Positions 53,722 to 63,270 of a stretch of DNA of 63,270 bases are shown here, one piece after another. Position 1 is the stretch's first letter. Each line of letters opens with the position of its first letter. The position numbers and the translations under genes were made by a program. The notes below the pieces were generated by a model, which saw only the letters and a program-made list of their open reading frames with translations, did not search any database and was not told where the DNA came from. Location of the stretch: NCBI GenBank assembly GCA_002238605.1, contig MPMR01000024.1, positions 1 to 63,270 on the forward strand, written 5' to 3'. Origin of the DNA: BD2-11 clade cluster bacterium bin43. GTDB taxonomy: Bacteria > Gemmatimonadota > Gemmatimonadetes > Longimicrobiales > Gaopeijiaceae.

Positions 53722-53752
53722 GATGCCCGACCTCCACGGGCCGGCAATAACG

Positions 53753-54970
53753 ATGTCCTCACCCTGGATCGTCGATCTTCGGGTTGCCGCCCTCCTGCTG
53801 TGTGGGATTGTGTCCTGTTCTCCCCAGGACTCGAGCCTGTCCCTGATCGTCCAACGCGACAGCGCCGGCATGGAGATCATCGAGGCGACGCGCCCGCTTT
53901 GGGGTGAGTCGAGCCTCTGGAGCATCGATCCGGATCCGCTCGTCGATCTGACTGTGTCCGGCACGGGCACGTCCCACGAGTTCTTCCGCGTCCGCGGCCT
54001 CCGGCAGCGGCCGGACGGCTCGCTCGTGCTTGCCGATCGAGCGTCCCGGCAACTACGCCATTATTCGCCTGAAGGGGAGTTCCTGGGGGCGCTGGGTGGG
54101 CCGGGAGAGGGCCCTGGCGAGTTCAGCGACATCCAACAGATCGAATTCGTCGCCGACACGGTGTTCGCACTCGACTCCGGCGGACGGGTGACCGTAGTGG
54201 GTCCCGATATGGAACTGGTCCGGACCTTCACGCTGCCTTTCAGCGTCCACGAAATCCATTCTCCGGGTGACGGGACGCTGCTTGGCGAGTCGCTCATGGA
54301 TCCCGGACCTGTGGAGATCGCGAACCGAATGATCCGTCCCCCGATCGTACTTGGCCGGTTCGACCTGGAGGGCATCCGGATCGACAGCATCGGCGAGTGG
54401 CCGGGACGCGAGTTCTACTCCTTCGCCTTTGAGGACTACTCCGGGAGTAGGCCGCCCCTGTTTGGAAGAGACGCGGAAATCGCCACCCTCGGACCACGGG
54501 TCTTCTTCGGATCCTCGGATCTGATGCAGGTCGAGGAATTGGATCTGGCGGGCAACATCGTTCGCATCCTTCGCGTCCCCGGCTATGACCTGGCCCTTGC
54601 CAGTGCCGAGGTCGCTGCCGAACGCGAAGCCTATCTCGACGTCGATCTTCCTCCGGGCGTCACGCTTCACCCCCTCATCCGGCGAAGCATCGAGGCGCTG
54701 CCCTCCCCCGTGACCCGACCCGCGTTCGTACAAATGCTGGTGGACCCGGCTGGAGCGGTGTGGCTGGAGTTGTACCGGGGATTGAGTGAAATGGACAGGC
54801 CGCAGGAATGGCTGGTGCTCGATATCGGCGGCATCTGGCTCGGGACCGTCAAGGCTCCGGATCGCTTCAGTCTGACAGACATCACCCTGGACGCCGTCCT
54901 CGGCGTCTGGCACGACGAGCTGGATGTCGAGCATCCCCAGGTGCTGCGGCTCACGCGGGGCGAGCCGTGA
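53753..54970 (+). CDS. 6-bladed beta-propeller lipoprotein, tandem paralog 3
   Basis: Third tandem copy with lipobox LCGIVSCSP. Motifs: VQRDSAGMEIIEATRPLWGE, LGGPGEGPGEFSDIQQIEF and DELDVEHPQVLRLTRGEP. The ATG at 53753 places the signal as in copy 2; an in-frame ATG at 53723 is an alternative, and the 30 bases in between resemble the region just upstream of copy 2, supporting a duplication that included the leader. About 405 aa. Function unknown. Confidence 0.78.
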   Translation: MSSPWIVDLRVAALLLCGIVSCSPQDSSLSLIVQRDSAGMEIIEATRPLWGESSLWSIDPDPLVDLTVSGTGTSHEFFRVRGLRQRPDGSLVLADRASRQLRHYSPEGEFLGALGGPGEGPGEFSDIQQIEFVADTVFALDSGGRVTVVGPDMELVRTFTLPFSVHEIHSPGDGTLLGESLMDPGPVEIANRMIRPPIVLGRFDLEGIRIDSIGEWPGREFYSFAFEDYSGSRPPLFGRDAEIATLGPRVFFGSSDLMQVEELDLAGNIVRILRVPGYDLALASAEVAAEREAYLDVDLPPGVTLHPLIRRSIEALPSPVTRPAFVQMLVDPAGAVWLELYRGLSEMDRPQEWLVLDIGGIWLGTVKAPDRFSLTDITLDAVLGVWHDELDVEHPQVLRLTRGEP

Positions 54971-55123: not shown

Positions 55124-57382
55124 GTGGCGCGATCTGTGCGGCCTCTTCTTCTAGTGGTTCCGGCGCTGGCCGTCACTGCAGCCGCGCGTCCGTCTCCGGT
55201 CGCCGGCCTGCAAGCCGATGAAACGGATGTGCCGGTCTACACCCACGAGCAGGCGGAGCTGGGCGAGGGCGTGTATCGGGACGCCTGCGCCGACTGCCAC
55301 TTGGCGAACCTCCGAGGTGACTTCGAGGCTCCGGAGCTCGCCGGCCGGAGCTTCCGCAGGGCCTGGGGGAACGAGGCTATCGGTGAGCTGCTCGAGAATA
55401 TCCGGTCGACCATGCCGGAGGACGCACCCGAGTCCCTGAGCGACGCGGAGTACGCGGCCGTGGTGGCGTACATCATCAGGGAGAACGGAGGGGTGCTGGG
55501 AGGGGTTTCGCTCGGGGGCGAGCTGGCCGGGGCGGCCACGCCATCGCAGCCCGGGGATGCCTCGGCCCGCACGGGGGCCGACGCGGGCCAGGCGACCGAA
55601 GATGCGCCCGCATCCCAACAAGACATCTCCGCGCCCCCCGTCGTCCCCCCCGTTCCCGGCCGGCCCGGCACCGGTCCCTCGCCGTACGCGCTGACCGGGC
55701 CGCCACCGGGCGGGGTCGGCGAGGTCACCGAGACCCCGACCGGCGTGACCCGCACCTGGCGCCCCGCAGCCCCCGCCCCCGCCTCCGACGCCGACCTGGC
55801 CGATCCCCCCGCGGCCGACTGGCTGCACTGGCGCGGCAACCCGGGCTCGTGGGGGTACAGCCCGCTCGACCAGGTCGACGCGTCGAACGTCCACCGCCTG
55901 CAGCTCGCCTGGTCGTGGGGGATGGAGGACGGGCGCAGCCAGCAGGCGCCCCTGGTTCGCGACGGGGTTCTCTTCCTCAGCAATCCCGGCAACGTGGTGC
56001 AGGCGCTGGATGCGGCCGACGGCACCCCGCTGTGGGAATACCGCCGCCGCTTCGAGGGCGGCCCGCGCGGGCAGCTGCGCACCCTCGCCATCTGGGAGGA
56101 CATCGTCTACGTGGCCACCGCCGACGCCCACATGGTGGCGCTCGATGCCGCCACCGGGACCGTCCGCTGGGAGACCCGCATCGCCGACCCGGAGAAGGGC
56201 TACTCGAACAGCACGGGTCCCATCGTGGCCGACGGCAGGGTCATCAACGGGATCAACGGCTGCGGCCGCTTCTACGAGGAAAGCTGCTTCATCACGGCCC
56301 ACGACGCCCGCACCGGCCGCGAGCTCTGGCGCACATATACCGTGGCGCGGCCCGGCGAGCCCGGCGGCGACACCTGGGGCGACCTGCCCTTCGAACTGCG
56401 CGGCGGGGCCGACGTCTGGATGACGGGCAGCTGGGATCCGGAGCTCGGGCTGGTCTACTTCGGCACCGCTCAGGCAAAGCCGTGGGTGGCGGCGAGCCGA
56501 GGCCTCACCACGGCCGATTCCACCGCCTACGCCAACTCCACCCTCGCCCTCCGCGTCGAGGACGGAAGCATCGCCTGGTACTACACCCACGTCCCGGGCG
56601 AATCGCTGGACATGGACGAGGCGCTCGAGCGCGTGCTGCTGGACGTGAACGGCGAACCGACCGTCATCTCCATCGGCAAGCACGGCATCCTGTGGAAGCT
56701 GGACCGACGCGACGGCGCGTTCCTGGGACTTACGGAGACCGTATATCAGAATATATTGAATATAGATTATAATACAGGCGCCGTTCAATATAGAGATGAT
56801 ATTGCCAACGCCAAGATCGACGAGTGGCTCTCGGTCTGCCCCTCGACCGCCGGCGGCCACAACTGGCCGGCGAGCGGCTACCATCCGCAGTCCGGCCTCC
56901 TGGTCACGCCGCTGAGCCAGAGCTGCATGGAGATCGCCGGACGGGAGACGGTGCTGGAGCCAGGCTCCGGCGGCAACCAGGGCGACCGCGCGTGGATGGA
57001 GATGCCCGGCACGGACGGCAACTTCGGCAAGCTGGCGGCCTATGACGTGGCCACCCTCGACGAGGTGTGGAGCATCGAGCAGCATGCACCCTTCCTGACC
57101 GCGGCGCTGACCACGGCGGGAGGCCTCGTCTTCGTCGGCGACTTCGACCGCTGGATCCGCGCCTACGACGTGCGCACCGGCGAGGTGCTGTGGCGGAGCC
57201 GCCTGGGCACCTCGGTGATGGGATACCCGATTGCCTACGAGGTCGACGGCGTGCAGTACGTGGCGGTGGCGACCGCGCGCGGCGGAGGCAGCCCCTGGCG
57301 CATCCCCACCTTCCTGACCCCGGAGCTGGTGAGTCCCGAGGGGCACAACGCCCTGTACGTCTTCAAGTTGAGCGAGCCCTGA
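55124..57382 (+). CDS. cytochrome c / PQQ-dependent dehydrogenase-like quinohemoprotein
   Basis: Exported redox enzyme. After a signal peptide, residues about 40-120 form a cytochrome c domain with CADCH (Cys55, Cys58, His59) and a candidate Met ligand in STMPED. A Pro/Ala-rich linker leads to an eight-bladed PQQ-type propeller with [74 protein letters not shown] and [21 protein letters not shown]. The natural substrate (alcohol or aldehyde) is unknown. Codons 56741-56806 are strikingly AT-rich. It starts the operon with the two genes that follow. Confidence 0.87.
56741..56806 (+). repeat. AT-rich patch with inverted repeat inside the quinohemoprotein gene
   Basis: About 66 coding bases use almost only A/T-ending codons in a gene whose other codons nearly all end in G or C. 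The patch holds a perfect 9-bp inverted repeat, TATATTGAA (56752-56760) and TTCAATATA (56784-56792), with a 23-base loop. The encoded residues [17 protein letters not shown] still match the expected propeller sequence. Confidence 0.8.
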
Positions 57383-57495
57383 GGAAGCGAATGAGACCCT
57401 GGGTGACGACTGGCGCGTCCACGGTGCCGATCGATGCGTTTCCTGCAGGACGCCGCGCGCTCAATAGCCATCATCGCGAGCGGAGGCCGCGCCGC

Positions 57496-58440
57496 ATGAC
57501 GGCGGCACTCGTCGCTGGCGGCGGTCGCCGCATCGGGCGATGGACGCGCCGTCTCGCGCTCGCGCCTGCGCTGGCCGTCTCCGCGGCTGCCGCCTGCCTC
57601 TCGGCGTCCCTCGAAGCCCAGCTCCCCCGCGCCTCCCAGCAGCGCGTCGCGGAACCCGGCGAAACCCAGTTCAACCTCGACTTCCTGCGCCCCTCGGGCG
57701 GCCCGGTCATCCCCATCTTCGAGGGCTGGTACCGGTTGCCGGACGGCTCATACGCCCTCTCCTTCGGCTACTTCAACGTGAACACCGAGGAGATCCTCGA
57801 TATTCCGCTGGGGGAGGACAACTTCCTCGAGCCGAGCGTCTACGACGGCGTCCAACCCACGCACTTCCTCCCGGTGCCGGAGGGAGACCGCCGTCACTGG
57901 GGTGTCTTTACAGTCACGGTCCCCTCCGACTTCGGGGACGGAGACGTGGTCTGGAGCCTGCGCCACGACGGGCGCACCTATTCCGTTCCGGGACGGATCC
58001 GGAGCCCGCACTACCAGATCAACGGGTGGGTTTTCCCGGGAAGGGAGAGTTCCTCGCCGGTGCTGCGGCTGGAGCGCGATGGCACCGGGGCCCAGGGTCC
58101 TGCCGGCATCTCGGCGGGGCCGGTGAGCGCGAAAGCAGGTGAGCCCGTGCGCCTGGTGGCGTGGGCCCAGCGGGACGGCGTTTTCCCCGATGACCTGCGC
58201 CCGATACACCTCAGGTGGTTCAAGCACCGCGGCCCCGGCCGCGTAACGTTCGGCGAGCCGGAGGCCGAGGTCCCCCATGAGGCGTGGAGCGCGGAGGGCG
58301 GCGCGGCGGTGATCACGGACGCGACCTTCAGCGAGCCGGGCAGCTACGTCGTGCGCGTACTTGCGTACAACCGCATCCCCGAGTTCGAATTCCAGTGTTG
58401 CTGGACCAATGGATACCTGCATGTGGAGGTGGGGCGATGA
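57496..58440 (+). CDS. secreted protein of unknown function in the quinohemoprotein operon
   Basis: A 314-aa exported protein; the N-terminus has a twin-arginine-like basic region and hydrophobic stretch (RLALAPALAVSAAAACLSASLEAQ). The body is beta-rich with FEGWYRLPDGSYALSFGYFNVN, HFLPVPEGDRRHWGVFTVTVP, and a C-terminal Ig-like part (DATFSEPGSYVVRVLAYN). GCGGAGG ten bases upstream supports the ATG. It overlaps the next gene (ATGA). It may be an accessory subunit of the flanking redox proteins. Confidence 0.75.
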   Translation: MTAALVAGGGRRIGRWTRRLALAPALAVSAAAACLSASLEAQLPRASQQRVAEPGETQFNLDFLRPSGGPVIPIFEGWYRLPDGSYALSFGYFNVNTEEILDIPLGEDNFLEPSVYDGVQPTHFLPVPEGDRRHWGVFTVTVPSDFGDGDVVWSLRHDGRTYSVPGRIRSPHYQINGWVFPGRESSSPVLRLERDGTGAQGPAGISAGPVSAKAGEPVRLVAWAQRDGVFPDDLRPIHLRWFKHRGPGRVTFGEPEAEVPHEAWSAEGGAAVITDATFSEPGSYVVRVLAYNRIPEFEFQCCWTNGYLHVEVGR

Positions 58441-59831
58441 CCCGCGGCTTCTGGACCGACACGGCGCCCGGGCAGGGCAGGCATCCTGCCCTCGTGGCCC
58501 TCCCGCTGTTCCTCGGGGTTGCATGGGGGACGCCCCTCACCGCCCAGAATGCGGAGGATGTTGCGGCCAACCCGAACGGCGCCGGCTCCGTGCACGACGA
58601 CGTGCCGACCTACGCACGCGATGTCGCGCCCATAATCCAGCGCTCCTGCCAGCAGTGCCACCGGCCGGACGGCATCGGCCCCATGCCGCTCCTCACCTAC
58701 GAGCAGACGGTGCCCTTCGCGCCGCTCATCCGCTACCGGGTCCAACAGCGCATCATGCCGCCCTGGCACCTCGACAAGACGGTGGGTATCCAGGAGTACG
58801 AGAACGACATCTCCCTCAGCGACGACGAGATCGCCACCATCGTGCAATGGGCCGACGCCGGCGCGCCCGAGGGCGACCTTGCCGACATGCCGGCGCCCAT
58901 CGACTTCCCACCCGCGTACGAGTGGGAGCTCGAGGCAGAGCTGGGCCCACCCGACTTCGTGGTGCGCTCCGAGCCCTTCACGGTCGTCGCCAACGGCCAG
59001 GACCAGTGGTGGGACCACACGATCGACTTCGAGGGGCTCCCGGAGCGCCGCTGGATCCGGGCGGCGGAGTTCAAGCCCTCATATCCGCTGGGCGTCAAGG
59101 TCGTGCACCACGGGCACGTACGCTTCGTGCAGGACGGCTACCGAATGGAGCTGGTCGGCATGGGCGTCGGCAAGCGCTGGGACAAGCTGCCCGACGGCGT
59201 GGGCAAGCTCCTGCTTCCCGGACCCGCGCAGATCTCCTGGGGGCTCCACTATTTCCCCATCGGCACCCCTGTGCCGGATGACGTGGTCGAGGCCGGCGTC
59301 TGGCTCTATCCGCCGGGCTACGAGCCCGAACTGTCATCCTCGGGGGAGCAGCGGCACCTCATCGACGGCACCTTCAGGACCGGCCTGCGCGCCCGCGACC
59401 TGATCATCCCGCCGCACGGCTACCTCACCCTGGAGCACGCCTACGTGCTCGACCAGCCGGCGCTCCTTCAGAGTTTCCGGCCCCACATGCACATGCGGGG
59501 CACCGCGATGTCCATGGAGGCCATCTATCCCGATGGTCGCCGCGAGATGCTCAGCCGGGTGGACCAGTACAACCACAACTGGCAGATCGCCTACATCTAC
59601 GAAGACGATGTGCAGCCGCTGCTGCCCAGAGGCACCGTGCTCCTCTTCCACTCGCAGTTCGACAATACCGCCAACAATCCCATCAATCCCGATCCGGACC
59701 AGTGGGTGCTGTTCGGCGCCCGCGGCGTGGACGAGATGTCGCACGCCTGGGTGGGGATCACGTATCTGAGCGACGACGACTACCAGCGGTTGCTGCAGGA
59801 GCGCACGAGGCTCGCGTCCGACGAGCCGTGA
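58437..59831 (+). CDS. cytochrome c / copper type II monooxygenase-like protein
   Basis: Exported 464-aa protein. The heme motif is SCQQCHRPDGIGPMP (Cys71, Cys74, His75) with a Met ligand candidate in QRIMPPWH. The C-terminal two-thirds resemble the double beta-sandwich of ascorbate-dependent copper monooxygenases, with candidate copper histidines in KVVHHGHVRF, WGLHYFPIGT and FRPHMHMRGTAMS. It overlaps the previous gene by four bases. It may hydroxylate a substrate, with electrons delivered through its own heme and the quinohemoprotein. Confidence 0.8.
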   Translation: MTRGFWTDTAPGQGRHPALVALPLFLGVAWGTPLTAQNAEDVAANPNGAGSVHDDVPTYARDVAPIIQRSCQQCHRPDGIGPMPLLTYEQTVPFAPLIRYRVQQRIMPPWHLDKTVGIQEYENDISLSDDEIATIVQWADAGAPEGDLADMPAPIDFPPAYEWELEAELGPPDFVVRSEPFTVVANGQDQWWDHTIDFEGLPERRWIRAAEFKPSYPLGVKVVHHGHVRFVQDGYRMELVGMGVGKRWDKLPDGVGKLLLPGPAQISWGLHYFPIGTPVPDDVVEAGVWLYPPGYEPELSSSGEQRHLIDGTFRTGLRARDLIIPPHGYLTLEHAYVLDQPALLQSFRPHMHMRGTAMSMEAIYPDGRREMLSRVDQYNHNWQIAYIYEDDVQPLLPRGTVLLFHSQFDNTANNPINPDPDQWVLFGARGVDEMSHAWVGITYLSDDDYQRLLQERTRLASDEP

Positions 59832-62529: not shown

Positions 62530-63010
62530 GACCGTCTGCCAGCGTCCGCCAAGGATAGCCCTGCGCCCCGCCGCCCCACTCTTCCGCTAACCTCTCATGC
62601 AGTCCCAGTGTATTCCGTTCGAGAAAAGGGATACCAATGATGATAACAACATAGTCAGTATCACCACAACATACTGTAACATAGTAAGTTACAGCGATTG
62701 CCGCGTCGGACGATTCCGTATCACTGTAGGCAGCGGCTTGGGAGGTGTTGACCGGGGAGGACCCTGCAAGGCGGAACGGTCCGGGCACTGGTGCGAAGCC
62801 AGCCGGGACGGCGTCTGTGTCGAAAACGCCGGCGAGGAATCCGCCGCCGGTGTTGACCAGGAGCCACGCTTCACGGTGCGCGTCGTCCCCGATGTACGGG
62901 CTCAACGTGCCGGGCGCGGCGCTCGCGGAGACATGCGCCGCAATCTGGTAGTAGCCCTTATCGATGCTGCTGATCGAGACGGTGCGGCTCCAGCTGTCGC
63001 CCGCGCTCAT
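62504..63010 (-). pseudogene. remnant of a secreted beta-rich protein gene
   Basis: An open minus-strand frame whose product (SRTVSISSIDKGYYQIAAHV, SPYIGDDAHREAWLLVNTGGG, AGFAPVPGPFRLAG) looks like part of an exported beta-sandwich protein with no signal peptide at the available start. It runs on past 63010 toward the insertion element and its end overlaps the UDG-like gene by 26 bases. Codons at about 62630-62696 are AT-rich unlike the rest. I read it as a truncated remnant; it could also be a spurious frame. Confidence 0.35.
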
Positions 63011-63205: not shown

Positions 63206-63270
63206 ATGGCGGGAAGAAGGCGAGGGCGATATCCGCCCGAGTACAAGGAGCGTATCGTCGAGCTGGTGAG
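63206..63270 (+). CDS. IS3-family transposase OrfA, partial
   Basis: Only the first 21 residues are in the window: MAGRRRGRYPPEYKERIVEL and one more. The basic start followed by YPPEYKERIVEL is typical of the helix-turn-helix OrfA (IS911/IS3 type) that recognises the element ends. The catalytic OrfB would lie beyond the right edge. Confidence 0.7.
   Translation, partial: MAGRRRGRYPPEYKERIVELV

Follow-up and report, generated by a model that had tools for sequence, protein, structure and literature searches.

An AT-rich patch within a quinohemoprotein dehydrogenase gene of one Gemmatimonadota lineage is conserved at the nucleotide level and probably carries a second, hidden control signal

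Introduction

Why should a gene that otherwise uses G/C-ending codons keep a short run of A/T-ending ones deep within its coding sequence? The question was raised by a 63,270-nucleotide stretch of BD2-11 clade bacterium bin43 (contig MPMR01000024.1; hereafter the window), in which an initial annotation had pointed to an AT-rich, hairpin-bearing patch inside a quinohemoprotein gene and had proposed a translation-pausing element, a gene-conversion tract from an AT-rich donor or a sequence kept for its structure as possible causes. To our knowledge, codon bias masks strongly conserved control signals deep in bacterial structural genes, which for this reason are seldom recognised on the strength of the sequence by itself.

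Results

Host gene and composition of the patch

The patch lies in a forward-strand gene (55124..57382) encoding a 752-aa protein that combines a cytochrome c domain at its N-terminus with a PQQ beta-propeller, as indicated by matches to Pfam (PF01011, E 1.9e-61; PF13442, E 1.2e-11); among solved structures, the nearest in sequence was 4cvb, an alcohol dehydrogenase (E 3.8e-101). Because the score against TIGR03075 (350.8 bits) fell under the model cut-off of 480.05, the product is named here as a PQQ-dependent quinohemoprotein dehydrogenase and no substrate is claimed. The patch spans codons 539-561 of the 752 (56738..56806), and the GC content of its first 66 nt, 0.29, was the minimum of the whole window (66-nt windows; mean 0.69, sd 0.065) and the lowest value among 279 coding-like ORFs in a 463-kb genome sample (463,270 bases, comprising 20 stretches and the window, or about 10% of 4.47 Mb), in which the next minimum was 0.44. 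The unusual codon run reported by the initial annotation was borne out, with 17 of the 22 codons in 56741-56806 ending in A or T as against a mean GC3 of 0.87 for the gene (10 orthologs), and so was the rarity of ATA, AGA and TTG, which made up 2.3% of Ile, 2.0% of Arg and 4.1% of Leu codons in the sample. Seventeen A/T-ending codons per 22-codon window were also reached by four other stop-to-stop ORFs of the sample, in windows that begin 32 to 80 codons past the upstream stop, a region in which the position of the true start is uncertain. A 16-codon case was seen in an ABC-transporter-like ORF (L085, 17511-19529), the C-terminal part of which appeared by eye to be out of frame, that is, frameshifted. 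The protein aligned gap-free with its nearest homologs and an insertion was rejected, in agreement with the earlier view that the patch is not simply an insertion that breaks the protein.

Distribution among relatives

Forty-five relatives were obtained from a scan of genome contigs, and more from searches of 59 relatives and 121 genomes of the family. Within the genus, 10 of 11 genomes contained the gene region and all 10 carried the patch; no match to the gene region came from the remaining one, G006, which is 67% complete. The patch was also present in G077, whose label places it in a different genus of the family and whose patch sequence is identical to that of locus L008. After rows identical over the last 1,200 bases had been dropped, 10 distinct orthologs remained (nine from the genus and one from the other family genome), and these had the A/T codons of the patch in common, whereas homologs outside the lineage followed the GC content of their own gene. 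Among the 40 deduplicated loci, 10 had the patch (GC 0.30-0.41) and 30 were without it (GC 0.45-0.65). Some outside-lineage homologs were AT-rich at the patch position (for example L044, 0.35; L026, 0.38; L023, 0.39), and homologs of this type had a GC content of 0.42-0.47 throughout a 306-nt stretch, versus 0.60-0.62 for the patch-bearing genes.

The nearest patch-less homologs (L143 and L144, from genus g56) were 80-83% identical over the 102 aa compared and encoded nearly the same residues as the patch with ordinary GC codons; such codons were likewise found in a second copy in the same genome (C11) and in a Bryobacterales-like copy in G001. Sister orthologs with GC codons, which had been named beforehand as one half of a case for an assembly chimera, were thus found, but the chimera itself was not: the patch is present in ten genus genomes and one other, and it recurs in assemblies of several species from several studies, on which ground a chimera was rejected. 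By their record titles the loci come from Gemmatimonadota MAGs; four (L004, L007, L012 and L019) were labelled Gammaproteobacteria yet duplicate genus sequences, and isolate names suggest sponge-associated samples as the source of the relatives. Two peculiarities of individual loci were recorded. L122 (G001:C461) is a second dehydrogenase copy with 73-76% amino acid identity to the window gene and patch codons like those of Bryobacterales-labelled sequences, and is either a recent transfer or bin contamination. The dehydrogenase gene of L022 / L059 (G004:C70) breaks into two reading frames near residue 293 and differs in identity between the two sides of the break (79% and 96%), through either a frameshift or a mosaic.

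Retention of the A/T-ending codons

The patch codons were retained among relatives far better than comparable codons of the same gene. Where two sequences encoded the same residue, an A/T-ending codon remained A/T-ending at a frequency of 0.87 in the patch versus 0.42 elsewhere, and was the identical codon at frequencies of 0.87 and 0.40, respectively; columns A/T-ending in all or all but one of the sequences numbered 11 of 27 in the patch versus 11 of 740 elsewhere. A two-state likelihood model was fitted to 91 sites outside the patch, comprising two-fold codons and those for Ile, and applied to seven patch sites, which showed 1 G/C-ending cell in 70, as compared with 44 in 70 predicted on the assumption of ancestral A/T at these sites followed by drift at the gene's own rates. 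None of 3,000 simulations was as low as the observation, and the best-fitting rate scale was 0.04 of the gene's own. When all degenerate residues were included, eight A/T-majority sites had 2 of 80 G/C-ending cells versus 56 expected, the patch sites in these rate tests having been partly picked for being A/T; when all 16 degenerate patch sites were taken as ancestral A/T, the count was 74 of 160 versus 112 expected, with the G/C-ending cells located mostly in the patch middle and in CAG, TTG and GCC. In a non-parametric comparison, 20,000 sets of A/T codons were drawn at random from the rest of the gene for each of the 10 anchor sequences, and not one attained the retention of the patch. All retention tests used one common gene tree rooted on L008, with the partial sequence L059 placed beside L008.

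The synonymous rate of the patch is therefore far under that of the rest of the gene, the pattern known as excess synonymous constraint, and the deficit of G/C-ending cells (1 of 70 as against 44 expected) indicates that selection acts on the nucleotides. A mutational cold spot is an unlikely cause of the low rate because codons in the middle of the patch vary. On this comparative evidence the nucleotides of the patch are conserved beyond the needs of the protein, and some embedded cis element is very probably present.

Anatomy of the patch

The constraint is concentrated in two blocks. Block 1, TATCAGAATATATTG (56744..56758), was invariant in 15 of 15 columns across the 10 distinct orthologs, and block 2, MATAYAGRRANGATATTGCC (56787..56806), in 15 of 20, including GATATTGCC, which was invariant in 10 of 10; within the 63-nt core (56744-56806), variable columns numbered 0 of 15 in block 1, 12 of 28 in the middle and 5 of 20 in block 2. 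TAT549, in the patch middle, was also invariant. Arg557 was encoded by AGR in all 10 orthologs in place of the usual CGN, and no swaps between A and T were seen at ATA544 or ATT560, so that the letters and not merely the AT content seem to be kept, although the sites are few and this indication is weak.

The two blocks contain a dyad. The perfect 9-bp inverted repeat that had been noticed at the outset was verified, TATATTGAA (56752-56760) and TTCAATATA (56784-56792) being exact reverse complements, and it forms part of an inner dyad on the plus strand with TATATTGAAT (56752..56761), which contains the repeat arm, on the left and GTTCAATATA (56783..56792) on the right. Outside it lie the arms TATCA (56744-56748) and TGATA (56797-56801), giving a dyad with TATCA/TGATA outside and TATATTGRAT plus its partner inside. 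The motif AATATATTGRATNT occurred in one copy per genome in 10 of 11 genomes and was absent from the incomplete G006; TATCAN{2,5}TATATT outside the patch was found once in G000 and once in G001 only.

Alternative explanations

Gene conversion from an AT-rich donor, followed by neutral amelioration, would account for the fact that the most AT-rich versions (the window and L008) also have AT-ward residues, with NIDYN replacing DVDYE by eye, and for several transversions relative to the sister sequence, which, again by eye, fit import or strong selection better than simple deamination; deamination-type hypermutation is disfavoured on the same ground. Neutral decay, however, predicts the 44 G/C-ending cells in 70 of which one was seen, the random-set comparison agrees, and the patch residues otherwise equal those of GC-rich sister orthologs. 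Conversion, as the initial annotation had it, was therefore discarded as the cause of the present state and is very unlikely, although import followed by selection may have been the origin of the patch, which is neither an artefact nor a decaying import. Slowing of the ribosome by the rare ATA, AGA and TTG codons between two propeller segments, with a benefit to folding, has in its favour the rarity of these codons in the genome and the position of the patch, which in our own reading of the 4cvb alignment is a weakly similar stretch flanked by well-matched segments. TAT, AAT, GAT and ATT, which are normally decoded by the tRNA of their C-ending partners, are just as frozen, codons in the patch middle vary, and sister homologs with nearly the same peptide lack the rare-codon run; a translation pause is thus conceivable as first proposed, but it explains less of the pattern and we regard it as improbable. 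Least probable of all is an overlapping short gene or internal start within the patch. The in-frame TTG545 is invariant, an ATG-started frame of 51 aa is present in 8 of 10 orthologs, and an out-of-frame TTG-started frame running from block 2, the sole alternative frame common to all 10, encodes 37 aa in nine and 98 aa in L008. The 51-aa ORF, however, is missing from L048 (the window) and L008, L059 and L054 lack another ATG-started ORF, at least two stops interrupt the antisense frame in 7 of 10, and the 37-aa TTG frame arises from the conserved ATATTG itself and would account for block 2 only.

Two readings account better for constraint on the nucleotides, one at the level of the message and one at the level of DNA. 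An mRNA element is possible though somewhat doubtful, either as a hairpin in which the two blocks pair through an outer TATCA/TGATA stem and an inner stem of at most 10 pairs around a loop of some 21 nt, or as an AU-rich endonuclease site at which cleavage would part the fate of the dehydrogenase message from that of the two following genes. Of the 15 pairs of the fixed dyad, every sequence formed at least 12 and five of the 10 formed all 15; pairing was 92.6% in register and at most 50.4% when the partner was slid; and RNAalifold recovered the dyad at -9.1 kcal/mol, with two pairs changed on both sides. Compared with GC-matched synonymous versions, fixed-register pairing gave P values of 0.0005-0.0225 in five sequences, a test biased by the derivation of the structure from those sequences, while the less biased longest-stem test gave 0.0025-0.015 in three of the five and 0.21-0.40, which is not significant, in the other two. 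Few stretches of the message are less structured than the patch, AUAUU is present in both blocks, an RNase E/G homolog is encoded, and the preference of RNase E fits AUAUU. Against a hairpin, the fold z-score was -0.99; the minimum free energy structure was another fold in 3 of 10 sequences as 63-nt cores and in 5 of 10, the window sequence included, in a 117-nt context; the covariation score was equalled or exceeded by 115 of 500 shuffles (a test of low power, since 10 of 15 pairs never vary), and the RNAalifold covariation term was only 0.09 and not favourable. One inner pair was mismatched in 5 of 9 distinct rows, variable third bases were 3 of 10 in stems versus 9 of 15 outside (Fisher p 0.23, not significant), and TAT549 and ATT560 are invariant yet lie outside the dyad. 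Rfam gave no match over 56400-57200 at E values up to 5. A conserved hairpin at the patch is thus possible, and of the proposal that the sequence is kept for its structure, the keeping of the nucleotides across 10 orthologs stands, whereas the structural part finds covariation no better than in shuffles.

A candidate DNA control site

The near-invariance of the two blocks in the absence of compensation is the pattern expected of a protein-recognised site, and we favour an embedded DNA site over an mRNA hairpin or cleavage site, with pausing and gene conversion fitting worse; this leading reading is nevertheless held tentatively. The patch would be an intragenic cis-acting control site overlying the dehydrogenase coding sequence, which would have arisen in the ancestor of one Gemmatimonadota lineage and have been held since by selection on the nucleotides. 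A protein would recognise it as DNA, and we infer that the patch could be a promoter, internal or antisense, bound by RNA polymerase, or else an internal operator bound by a regulator, with the putative effect of tuning transcription of the dehydrogenase gene together with its two downstream neighbours.

Promoters of the sigma-70 type have -35 and -10 hexamers spaced by 16-18 nt. A sigma-70-like scan of five loci of about 3.4 kb gave matches on the antisense strand only, all of them at the patch. In the window the match is TTGGCG-16-TATATT (56787..56814, minus strand), which agrees with only 9 of 12 consensus positions and touches block 2 but not block 1; it was shared with L004 and L005, shifted and made of other hexamers in L008, and lacking in L007, where about 3.4 kb gave no promoter-like match. 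A second antisense match (56788-56759) was found in the window sequence only. In a GC-rich gene, any AT-rich patch draws promoter-like matches. The essential confinement of the motif to the patch argues against a dedicated regulator, which usually has several sites, and no further convincing copies of the motif, such as a regulon or an operator pair would supply, were found in the genomes. H-NS and Lsr2 are the usual binders of AT-rich DNA; the genome that contains the window had no match to either silencer (PF00816, PF11774). By eye, an alignment of 220 nt upstream in nine loci contained no similar AT-rich block, and a shared upstream operator was rejected.

Gene order around the patch

The dehydrogenase gene is followed on the forward strand by a second gene (57391..58440; true start uncertain) and a third (58437..59831), the latter with a CQQCH haem-binding-like motif seen by eye; neither had a Pfam or NCBIfam match at E 0.001. 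All 10 distinct patch-bearing sequences have the second gene after the dehydrogenase gene, eight of them continue directly with the third, and the order dehydrogenase-second-third was seen or could be deduced in every case. In G005 one contig ends within the second gene, and another contig carries the dehydrogenase end, the second gene and the third in order. In G008 the last 13 residues of the second gene adjoin the third gene on another contig, from which remnant the former order is deduced. The G008 second gene (L007 6180-7434, L174) is broken near its C-terminus, and an integrase-like ORF of 387 aa adjoins the break by eye.

Homologs of other lineages showed different arrangements. In 19 gammaproteobacterial-type loci (those among L023-L045 with both genes in the flank), both genes preceded the dehydrogenase gene. 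L009 and L016, which have the same patch codons as genus g56, contained neither gene within 3 kb. This gene order would fit a control site for a rearranged operon. The link between patch and gene order amounts to a single evolutionary event, and it is opposed by L047, which lacks the patch yet has the two genes downstream with their order exchanged, and by L010, L011 and L017, which have a distant relative of the third gene (30% identical) downstream, also without the patch.

Two further features of the window were noted. The gene upstream of the dehydrogenase gene (53723-54970; also noted at L004, L007, L008 and L012) belongs to a family of which several relatives have at least two diverged copies next to the dehydrogenase gene, while in others the flank has none. 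A second AT-rich stretch (62586-62716; minimum GC 0.33), apparently noncoding and with short inverted repeats, lies about 490 nt ahead of the start of a transposase-like ORF near 63206, as judged by eye.

Discussion

Signals embedded in coding sequence are of a known kind, and the control region of proU, like the patch, is AT-rich. The negative and downstream regulatory elements of proU extend into proV (PMC10656529), so that there, too, a control region overlaps the first coding gene of an operon; in that account, however, the region is bound by H-NS and spans the promoter, with the wider negative element reaching about 1,100 bp into proV, whereas for the patch no H-NS or Lsr2 homolog was found and the letters, not just the AT content, appear to be kept. 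The gal operator OI of Escherichia coli is internal to galE (PMC4693257) and resembles our candidate as a protein-binding control site that sits within the coding part of the first structural gene of an operon. According to the same source OI lies near the promoter, at +53.5, and is paired with a second, external operator that binds the same repressor, GalR, while the patch is about 1,620 nt into its gene, is without a second copy that we could find and has a binder that is only postulated.

The approach itself has precedents. FRESCo delineated regions of excess synonymous constraint in viruses (PMC4376164), where, as here, a low synonymous rate reveals functions hidden in coding sequence; the method is described there for viruses, while the patch is in a bacterial chromosome and runs against the direction of codon bias. 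Bacterial gene starts are AT-rich and have low Ks, which can be mutational in origin (PMC12725619); they share with the patch a locally high AT content and a low synonymous rate within genes, but the reported effect concerns the first tens of codons and the patch occupies codons 539-561 of 752. No description of the patch element was found in the open-licence literature on intragenic or conserved elements, on the taxon or on Gemmatimonadota.

It would be somewhat surprising, but is conceivable, that the patch belongs to an undescribed class of recognition site or RNA switch, given that it is lineage-specific, single-copy, nearly invariant, located mid-gene and set against GC codon bias. Such an element would consist of two self-complementary blocks also able to pair with each other, and its origin may coincide with the operon rearrangement that put the dehydrogenase gene first; we consider this unlikely on balance. 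Taken on the comparative evidence, the patch probably carries a second, hidden control signal in addition to its codons. Because this signal opposes codon bias, it stands out and can be measured, which makes the patch a clean target for synonymous recoding, and it suggests that scanning GC-rich genomes for conserved islands of AT codons could reveal more embedded elements.
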